Positions 3,640 to 43,800 of a stretch of 48,126 bases of DNA are shown here, piece by piece. The position numbers and the translations under genes are program-made. The stretch spans positions 1 through 48,126 of the forward strand of contig DATLGO010000018.1 of NCBI GenBank assembly GCA_035540375.1, read 5' to 3'. The first letter of the stretch is position 1; the number at the start of each line of letters is the position of its first letter. The notes below the pieces were generated by a model, which saw nothing but the letters and a program-made list of their open reading frames with translations, was not told the origin of the DNA and searched no databases. Origin of the DNA: Candidatus Thermoplasmatota archaeon. GTDB taxonomy: Archaea > Thermoplasmatota > SW-10-69-26 > JACQPN01 > JAJPHT01.

Positions 3640-4715
3640 AGGCTCCCTCCGGGCAGGCGCTCGGTCTTCTCGTTCGCGGCGCGCGCGAGCGCGGCGACGA
3701 GGAACTTCGCGGCCTCGTTCGCGGCGAGCGCCTCGCGTCGTCCGAGGTCCGCGCGCGAGGAAAGCGCGTCGAGCGTCGCGACGTCGTCCTTGAAGTCGTC
3801 CGGCGTGACCTCCTCGAGAAGGCGCCCGATGGGCGGGTCGCCCGCGTGGAGGAGGCCCGCCACGCTCGCGTGCGCCCATCGGACGGCGCCCACGTCGTCG
3901 CCCGACGCGAGGGCCTCGTTCGAGCGGGCGAGGCCGGCGAGCGCGTGCTCTCCGGGCGTCGCGTCGCGAAGCTGGCCGAACGCGGCGAGGAGGCGGCGGG
4001 CGTTCCAGACCCGCGCGGGCCGGGCGCCGGGATACTGGACGGGAACGGCGCGTCTCTCGATCGGGATGACGATGACGAGGGCCGCGGCCATCGCGAGCGT
4101 GCCCGCGATGGAGACCATGTCGAAGACGCCCGCGCCGCCGAGGCTCACGAGGACGGACTCGCGCGCGCCGTCGCCCGCCCCGCCGTAGGCTTCGAGGAGG
4201 CGCGGCAGATTCAGGAGGTCGGCGCCCACGAGCGCGCCGATCGAGCCGGAGGCGTACGCGAGCGGCACGCTCCGGACGAGCCGCGCGGGGCTCATCGCGA
4301 CGGCGAAGAGGAGCGCCGCGATCGACGGAAGGAAGAAGCTCGGGAACGAGGCGACGATGCCGACCTGCGGATCGAAGCGGGCGATCGCGTGCGCGACGAA
4401 CGACACGATGGCGATCCCGAGAAGCGCGGACAGGGCGCCGAGGCGGCCCGTGCGGAGCCATCCGAGCACGAGGATGACGGGAACGAGCGCGCCGCCGAGG
4501 TTGACGGCGAGGTACGCGTCGCCGAGAGGCAAAACCGGGACGTTCACGACCCAGCCCGCGATGGACCCCAGGCAGAGGAGCGCGACCTCCCACCGTCCGA
4601 AGCCCGCCTCGGCAAGGAGGCTCTCCCGTCCCTTGAAGGCGAGCCAGAGAAGGCCCAGGCTCGAGAACGCGAGGATGAACGGCCAGGGCGCGCCCGCGAG
4701 GGCATCGAGCGCCAT
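3636..4715 (-). CDS. DUF1614-like polytopic membrane protein
   Basis: The 359-residue protein has about seven or eight hydrophobic helices in the first 240 residues and a soluble helical tail of about 120 residues. The segment PLGDAYLAVNLGGALVPVIL resembles the conserved core of DUF1614 proteins found in archaea and some bacteria; their function is unknown. A further acidic/small-residue membrane motif, YASGSIGALVGADLLNLP, fits the same family. It is the first gene of a two-gene unit with the RDD protein, and a TATA-like GCTTAAGC sits 28 bases before the ATG, so it should be leaderless. The family call is from memory of the motif, not a search. Confidence 0.6.
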   Translation of the reverse strand: MALDALAGAPWPFILAFSSLGLLWLAFKGRESLLAEAGFGRWEVALLCLGSIAGWVVNVPVLPLGDAYLAVNLGGALVPVILVLGWLRTGRLGALSALLGIAIVSFVAHAIARFDPQVGIVASFPSFFLPSIAALLFAVAMSPARLVRSVPLAYASGSIGALVGADLLNLPRLLEAYGGAGDGARESVLVSLGGAGVFDMVSIAGTLAMAAALVIVIPIERRAVPVQYPGARPARVWNARRLLAAFGQLRDATPGEHALAGLARSNEALASGDDVGAVRWAHASVAGLLHAGDPPIGRLLEEVTPDDFKDDVATLDALSSRADLGRREALAANEAAKFLVAALARAANEKTERLPGGSL

Positions 4716-15543: not shown

Positions 15544-15674
15544 CGATCTTCAGTCATGCCTGGTAGCATGCGTTGGCGTGGGGCGAGCCGGGCTCGAACC
15601 GGCGAGACAGCGAGCGTGAGCGAGCGGCGAGGACGAATCCGCTGATTCGTCCGAGTCATGATCTTCAGTCATGC
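15544..15674 (-). repeat. Broken tRNA-Phe 3' copy with variable-loop insert, plus an extra anticodon-arm fragment
   Basis: Reading on the minus strand, 15674-15656 repeats the tRNA-Phe anticodon arm, then a 50-base insert (15655-15606) containing a 9-bp hairpin, GGACGAATC/GATTCGTCC, then an intact T arm and acceptor 3' strand (15605-15579). A further anticodon-arm copy lies at 15560-15544. The 61-base blocks 15545-15605 and 15660-15720 agree at all but three positions. There is no 5' half, so this is not a functional tRNA gene. Confidence 0.7.
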
Positions 15675-15693
15675 CTGGCGGCATGCGTTGGAG

Positions 15694-15767
15694 TGGGGCG
15701 AGCCGGGCTCGAACCGGCGACCTCATGATCTTCAGTCATGCGATCTCCCAAACTGATCTACCGCCCC
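15694..15767 (-). tRNA. tRNA-Phe (GAA)
   Basis: This 74-base gene folds as a complete tRNA. The acceptor GGGGCGG pairs with TCGCCCC (one G-T pair), the D arm is GATC/GATC, and the anticodon arm is CATGA-CTGAAGA-TCATG with anticodon GAA. The T arm is GCCGG-TTCGAGC-CCGGC, and the discriminator is A; CCA is not encoded. Its 5' half and flank are exactly repeated 172 bases upstream in a broken copy. Confidence 0.93.
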
Positions 15768-15792
15768 AGTTGGGTGTGTTGGCGTATGCTTT

Positions 15793-15812
15793 GGGAAGGC
15801 GTGAACCTTCCC
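15793..15812 (-). terminator. Hairpin between the broken and the intact tRNA-Phe copies
   Basis: GGGAAGG and CCTTCCC (7 bp, 6-base loop) form a stem between the two copies. It could end transcription of the upstream copy or mark a processing site; no T-run follows on the minus strand. Confidence 0.35.
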
Positions 15813-15822
15813 GATTCGCGCG

Positions 15823-15939
15823 TGCCGGGCTCGAACCGGCGACCCCGCGAGCCGCAGCGAGCGGCGAGCACGAATCCCTCAGGATTCGTGGGAGTCATGA
15901 TCTTCAGTCATGCGATCTCCCAAACTGATCTACCGCCCC
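15823..15939 (-). pseudogene. Degenerate tRNA-Phe copy with a hairpin insert in the variable loop
   Basis: The 5' acceptor strand, D arm and anticodon arm (15939-15895) are identical to the intact tRNA-Phe, including 10 bases of upstream flank. After the anticodon stem comes an insert of about 50 bases with two hairpins, CACGAATCC/GGATTCGTG and GCCGC/GCGGC, then the T arm (15840-15824). The 3' acceptor strand is replaced by ACGCGCG, which pairs poorly, so the copy is unlikely to give a working tRNA even if the insert were spliced. Confidence 0.75.
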
Positions 15940-16036
15940 AGTTGGGTGTCCGCTTGCGGATGCCCGCGCCCGTCAAAAAGCGAGCACGTTCGCCTCCGGA
16001 AAACCCGGCGGCGTACCCCCTCAAGCTGCCGCCGGT

Positions 16037-43201: not shown

Positions 43202-43221
43202 GGGTACGGGGCTTTACAGCG

Positions 43222-43382
43222 GGCACTCCGTCGCACCAGCCTGCGGGCTCGTGCGACTCCGTGCCAAGGAAGGGGGCTATCCGCCCCCTCCCTTGGATCC
43301 GCACGAACCTCTGGATTCGTGCTCGCCGCGGCGGCGTAACGCCGCGGCCCCTCCCGTGGACCAGGGGGCTCTCGCCCCCTGG
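43222..43382. repeat. Cluster of five consecutive hairpins
   Basis: Five inverted repeats lie end to end: GGCAC..GTCGCAC/GTGCGAC..GTGCC (43222-43265), CCAAGG..AGGGGG/CCCCCT..CCTTGG (43264-43296), CACGAA/TTCGTG (43302-43321), CCGCGGCG/CGCCGCGG (43326-43347) and CCAGGGGGC/GCCCCCTGG (43361-43382). The third and fourth share GGATTCGTGCTCGCCGC with the insert in the broken tRNA-Phe copy. I see no gene here; a terminator array or mobile repeat is possible. Confidence 0.65.
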
Positions 43383-43518
43383 ACCCCCGACCCAAACCCG
43401 CGTTGCTTTCTCGTACAGTGCCCGGGGTTCTTGGCCCCCTTCGCGAGCGCTTGTGTGGCGGCGCGTGGCTGCCTCCTGCGCCGGTCAACCTTCCGAACCG
43501 GGCGCGCGCACTGGCTGC

Positions 43519-43800
43519 GGTCCCGGTCCCGGACCCGCTCCCGGACCCGGACCCGACGCCCGACACCCGGACCCGACGCCCGGCGCCCGGCACCCGGCTC
43601 CCGGTCCCGAAGCCCGGTCCCGACACCCGACGCCCCGGTCCCGAGATCCGGTCCCGAATCCCGGCGCCCGGTCCCGGTCCCGAGACCCGGTCCCGAATCC
43701 CGGCGCCCGGTCCCGGTCCCGGTCCCGGTCCCGACTCCCGGCACCCGGTCCCGACACCCGGCGCCCGGTCCCGACGCCCGGCGCTCGGGACCCGACGCCC
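43519..43800. repeat. Low-complexity GC tract of CCCGNN hexamer-like units
   Basis: About 280 bases consist of CCCGGT, CCCGAC, CCCGGC and related hexamers with occasional 7-base steps, all without TA, so every frame is open. No start, promoter or codon bias supports a gene; together with the hairpin cluster this explains the 660-base gap before elp3. Confidence 0.75.

Follow-up and report, generated by a model that had tools for sequence, protein, structure and literature searches.

At the Escherichia coli tyrT locus, tandem units that contain the tRNA 3' end are found downstream of the gene. Integration of SSV- or pNOB8-type elements leaves the inserted DNA bracketed by directly repeated copies of a tRNA end, and an intact gene is reconstituted. 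In Caldiarchaeum, a tRNA-Thr fragment and an intron were ascribed to a mobile element that encodes a recombinase (Sugahara et al. 2012, PMC3293823); this is the closest account that we found in the literature searched. Short hairpins dispersed in many copies are known in bacteria as REP/BIME (REP: PMC2817692) and as the hairpin ends of IS200/IS605-type elements, and archaeal tRNA genes can carry bulge-helix-bulge introns (PMC4090602).

The locus described here lies in a window of 48,126 nucleotides (contig DATLGO010000018.1 of a Candidatus Thermoplasmatota archaeon), where four pieces of a tRNA-Phe gene follow one another on the minus strand in the order copy A, copy B, copy C, and fragment D. 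Copy B (15693-15767) is an intact tRNA-Phe(GAA), found by ARAGORN and by Rfam at 62.8 bits, and the genome holds no second strong tRNA-Phe match. An earlier note on this DNA had placed an intact gene between two incomplete copies, an arrangement that proved correct. The 5' part of copy A (15895-15949) comprises 10 bp of 5' flank (15940-15949) and tRNA-Phe positions 1-45 (15895-15939) and is identical to copy B; the 55-base blocks 15723-15777 and 15895-15949 are thus exact repeats, as had been read. An insert of 50 nt follows (15845-15894), made of the hairpin CACGAATCC-TGAG-GGATTCGTG and a GC-rich tail, and then the variable loop and T arm (positions 46-70; 15820-15844; 96% identity) with the T-arm stretch GGTCGCCGGTTCGAGCCCGGCACGC. 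Beyond it the acceptor strand is decayed or lost, and unrelated sequence begins. Copy C, also on the minus strand, consists of the anticodon arm (positions 27-45; 15656-15674), an insert of 50 nt (15606-15655; hairpin GGACGAATC-AGCG-GATTCGTCC, then a GC-rich tail), and the 3' half (positions 48-75; 15578-15605; 100% identity). Fragment D, a fourth piece that the earlier note did not include, has 15 nt of the anticodon arm (positions 27-41; 15545-15559, minus strand). The main pieces of the partial copies were matched with E values of 1.8e-20, 3.1e-11, and 5.6e-8, far above chance.

The remaining details of the first reading also hold. Three mismatches, and no more, separate the 61-base blocks 15545-15605 and 15660-15720; copy C is without its 5' half (positions 1-26 are missing) and copy A without its original 3' acceptor strand. 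Both hairpin inserts, reported as about 50 bases long and at one point, are placed between tRNA position 45 and the T arm (copy A resumes at 46 and copy C at 48), and they are related, each being a hairpin with a 4-nt loop and a GC-rich tail. An assembly artefact is unlikely to lie behind this array, because other contigs and other genomes show the same architecture. Rfam gave nothing but tRNA at this locus and at 18 related loci. Seven frames around the array, picked by length alone and possibly not genes, had no Pfam match, and no viral relatives were found of the translated stretch adjoining the locus. Split or permuted tRNA genes do not fit, since an intact tRNA-Phe is present and the halves do not supply one that is otherwise missing.

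The array shares with the Caldiarchaeum locus a 5' tRNA fragment near an intact tRNA and a disruption that may be ascribed to a mobile element, but the insertion in that model is 1.8 kb long and encodes a recombinase (PMC3293823), whereas the inserts here are of about 50 nt and non-coding, and many tRNAs are involved. It differs from tyrT in that the copies are also interrupted by inserts, 5' ends are duplicated, and many tRNAs are affected. The att-like repeats that the earlier note had proposed to look for are present as a direct repeat of the tRNA end around the insert, with the intact gene restored. This is the SSV/pNOB8-type outcome, from which the locus departs in its tiny inserts, in the duplication of both 5' and 3' ends, in its several copies per locus, and in that no integrase was found in this genome.

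A selected array, serving as regulatory tRNA-like decoys or as a processing signal, would be no scar at all. The perfect conservation of the 5' block speaks for it, as does the sequence upstream, read directly: an AT-rich octamer at a TATA-like distance precedes only copy A (CTTTTTGA, at -41), copy B has just a weak AAAGCATA at -25, and from these boxes the two copies may be co-transcribed. Truncation differs from locus to locus, however, the nearest relative has a single plain tRNA-Phe, and single-strand folding of copies A and C is no more stable than that of shuffled sequences; we regard a functional array as very improbable. An empty site for the Phe locus was not established, as the neighboring genes were unmatched to relatives within the fetched flanks; the sole neighborhood match recovered was between 9.7-14.5 kb of the window and locus L030 of genome G004.

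Each fetched tRNA locus was searched for a truncated same-strand copy of its own tRNA within 800 bp or less, and other tRNAs on the same flanks served as the control. Such a copy was present at six of the 42 loci of the present genome (G000; mismatched controls, 2/326) and at 13 of 38 in G002, of the same order (controls, 3/295); in G001, of the same family, the counts were 3/21 for loci and 4/158 for controls. The six loci of the present genome are Phe, Met, Arg-CCG, Arg-TCG, Gln-TTG, and Gln-CTG, and Lys-CTT fell slightly below the cut. At every locus inspected in alignments, a hairpin adjoins the truncated copy. Copies of the 3' end lie downstream of the tRNA and copies of the 5' end upstream, separated by tens to about 250 bp. 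The similarity ends at the tRNA end in most G002 cases; in the present genome, at Phe, Met, Arg-CCG, and Gln-CTG, it continues into flanking sequence. At L077, a tRNA-Gln(TTG) precedes several copies of its 3' end, which have palindromic arms and in part lie in repeats of about 90 bp. The recurrence of hairpins with partial tRNAs at many loci supports, in general form, scarring by an inserting element.

Inserts related to the two at Phe were found, by eye grouping, at Met and Arg-CCG; all four have GGACGA or CACGA stems and, after them, a GC-rich tail. They enter the variable loop in Phe, the D loop in Met, and the anticodon stem in Arg-CCG; Arg-TCG has a reversed relative of the hairpin (again grouped by eye) at the anticodon loop, and other hairpins occupy the T loop of Gln and Lys. 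A repeat that targets the variable loop, one of the earlier suggestions, is thus too narrow a description. The Phe insert hairpin GACTCC..CACGAATCC..GGATTCGTG..CTCGCCGC also has 89% identity over 35 nt to two further places in the genome, which are part of intergenic multi-hairpin repeats scattered over it. One such repeat matches 51 places in the genome, among them 43209-43403 of the window, where the hairpin is of the type seen in the Phe inserts. Directly past this hairpin repeat, at 43510-43600, there is a run of short repeats of the CCCGGA/CCCGAC type, and similar runs adjoin other hairpin repeats (L327, L331, L333, L334, and L342).

An account based on insertion draws support from the architecture of the array, from the return of this architecture at many tRNA loci, those of a same-order relative included, and from the dispersal of the insert hairpin. 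We give an even chance to the proposal that short non-autonomous hairpin elements built the Phe array by inserting repeatedly, with the struck gene end duplicated or restored. Elements of about 50-100 bp would repeatedly enter the tRNA gene, each event would leave a truncated copy beside an intact one, and selection would retain one working tRNA. The hairpins would be mobile, presumably moved by an enzyme acting in trans, and would either arrive with a duplicated gene end or trigger the duplication.

Alternatively, the partial copies might be att-site scars of ordinary elements of the integrase type (SSV or pNOB8), which use tRNA genes and would since have been mostly deleted. Many G002 tRNAs have partial 3' copies that end at the tRNA 3' end, like integrase att duplications; four of the five tyrosine integrases of that genome adjoin tRNA genes; and in a published model tRNA fragments and an intron derive from such an element (PMC3293823). 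In the present genome, which is 97% complete, no tyrosine integrase (PF00589) was found, near the locus or anywhere else, while the control was positive in all 14 genomes; the duplicates lie only tens to about 250 bp apart without a large element between them. An integrase is normally specific to one site, and here a single hairpin family is found at different tRNAs. We therefore regard this explanation as quite unlikely. The scar of an integrating element that the earlier note had proposed stands in its general form, as hairpin scars at many loci, but not as the work of a classical integrase, for which both the gene and spacers longer than tens to a few hundred bp are missing. The four G002 integrases (C5, C13, C18, and C25) are no more than about 600 bp from a tRNA gene; they mark ordinary integrated elements, which are a different thing from the short hairpin scars.

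A second element, E2, better conserved and of similar architecture, is a junction hairpin at tRNA-Gln(CTG) and tRNA-Lys(CTT) of the present genome, with the core TTTCCGTNNACGCTTTT-stem-AAAAGGGTNN, also given as TTTCCGTNNACGCTTTT-stem-AAAAGGG. Its pattern occurs in 16 of the 390 genomes of the phylum, and the reversed-pattern control was zero in all. At least 117 E2 stretches were found in 84,980 prokaryote genomes; among the matches listed, 80 of 80 are archaeal, and the core is conserved across archaeal phyla. In 148 of 160 distinct copies (24.9 expected from the marginals), a dinucleotide inside E2 is the reverse complement of the one in the adjoining flank. E2 lies antisense in the interrupted tRNAs called by ARAGORN, one call excepted, and many of the E2-bearing interruptions are at position 37/38. 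By eye, it was also seen within 23S-like (L157, 215-261) and 16S-like sequence (L186, reverse complement, 4626-4672) of Aenigmatarchaeota, where it possibly represents tiny rRNA introns, and, apparently in frame, within IS200-type transposase-like frames (L145, a Methanophagales record, and L165). Other copies are positioned after apparent stop codons. No Rfam family was found for E2 among the loci tested, nor a paper naming an E2-like element in the literature searched, in which subscription papers and preprints were thinly covered.

The right flank is duplicated on the left in 25 of 157 E2 copies, with the duplicates 0-165 bp from E2 save for two outliers (813 and 5010 bp), and the flanks examined held no long element between duplicated ends. 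A comparison of the congeneric genomes G253 and G256 (L347 vs L140) showed the upstream region of the same gene with the E2 hairpin missing in G253, where a short remnant-like AAAAAGGGTTC is kept. At L264, on a contig that IMG/VR lists as viral, E2 adjoins a tRNA whose end is duplicated over 21 bp; the contig is possibly a vector or mis-binned archaeal DNA. The guide-hairpin-junction order of E2 is one that we take to resemble the right end of IS200/IS605. Y1 transposases (PF01797) are absent from G000, G002, G003, G016, G253, and G256; a Y1 (HUH) transposase was therefore rejected as the mover, since G002, G253, and G256 are E2-rich, and this sets the hairpins apart from the REP and IS200/IS605 types, with which they share their number, dispersal, and short length. 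Because the E2 core is not present in the Phe inserts, the link between them consists of architecture and the shared genome only. Membership of the Phe inserts in the E2 family is not claimed, although by analogy of architecture they may use the E2 mechanism.

Three protein genes have E2 between two copies of the gene end: one each in G002 and G003, and a guaA-like gene in L188 (these recoded tails are at loci L126, L127, and L188). All 18 codon changes between the copies are synonymous, where random single changes would be synonymous in 23%; a fourth case (L093) was left out of the count for a small indel. Neutral decay of one copy does not fit these numbers. They would fit a replacement end that was brought with E2 or derived from a diverged homologue, and synonymously recoded ends are expected if the replacement end came with E2.

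The earlier note had also raised relics of a noncanonical intron, and copies A and C could be read as tRNA genes with a variable-loop intron cut out by the splicing endonuclease. Deleting exactly 50 nt from copy A rebuilds the tRNA as far as the T arm, and E2 elements do occur in interrupted tRNA genes elsewhere, a feature shared with archaeal bulge-helix-bulge introns (PMC4090602). Unlike such introns, the Phe inserts have no splice motif that restores the tRNA: a strict scan gave one motif in copy A, which does not, and none in copy C, and a relaxed scan gave none in either. As a negative the scan carries little weight, since tRNA interruptions with E2 mostly fail it too, the relaxed version recovering just 4 of 24 (1.1 expected after shuffling). 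Since copy A has no pairing acceptor strand and copy C no 5' half, neither alone could give a tRNA, and an intron is the most improbable of the explanations considered.

The main rival to hairpin insertion needs no mobile element. During replication or repair, the polymerase would fold back on the quasi-palindromic arms of the tRNA and re-copy the gene end. The adjacent arm is the reverse complement of the copy, at z > 3 against shuffled sequences, in 14 of 26 partial copies (for example, AGGAGGAGTTTGAAC / GTTCAAATCTCCTCCT), and many partial copies start in the T or anticodon loop. Reverse-complement arms are missing at the Phe copies, however, and template switching leaves unexplained the recurrence of one hairpin at dispersed intergenic sites, the E2 core across archaeal phyla, the dinucleotide matching, and the synonymously recoded gene ends. 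We consider it unlikely.

The origin of interrupted and fragmented archaeal tRNA genes is a long-standing open question. Tentatively, and with more doubt than confidence, we propose that the hairpins belong to an undescribed class of archaeal mobile hairpins with a built-in target-matching dinucleotide. These would spread via tRNA, rRNA, and protein genes and survive there by being spliced out or by supplying a replacement gene end; they may have seeded part of the archaeal tRNA introns, and within the class the Phe inserts would form a GC-rich branch. Scars at various stages are plentiful in the present genome and its relatives, and E2 is a searchable motif whose target matching can be measured. 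With these, strain comparison and RNA sequencing can directly test the idea that tRNA genes are disrupted, and introns seeded, by small mobile hairpins.
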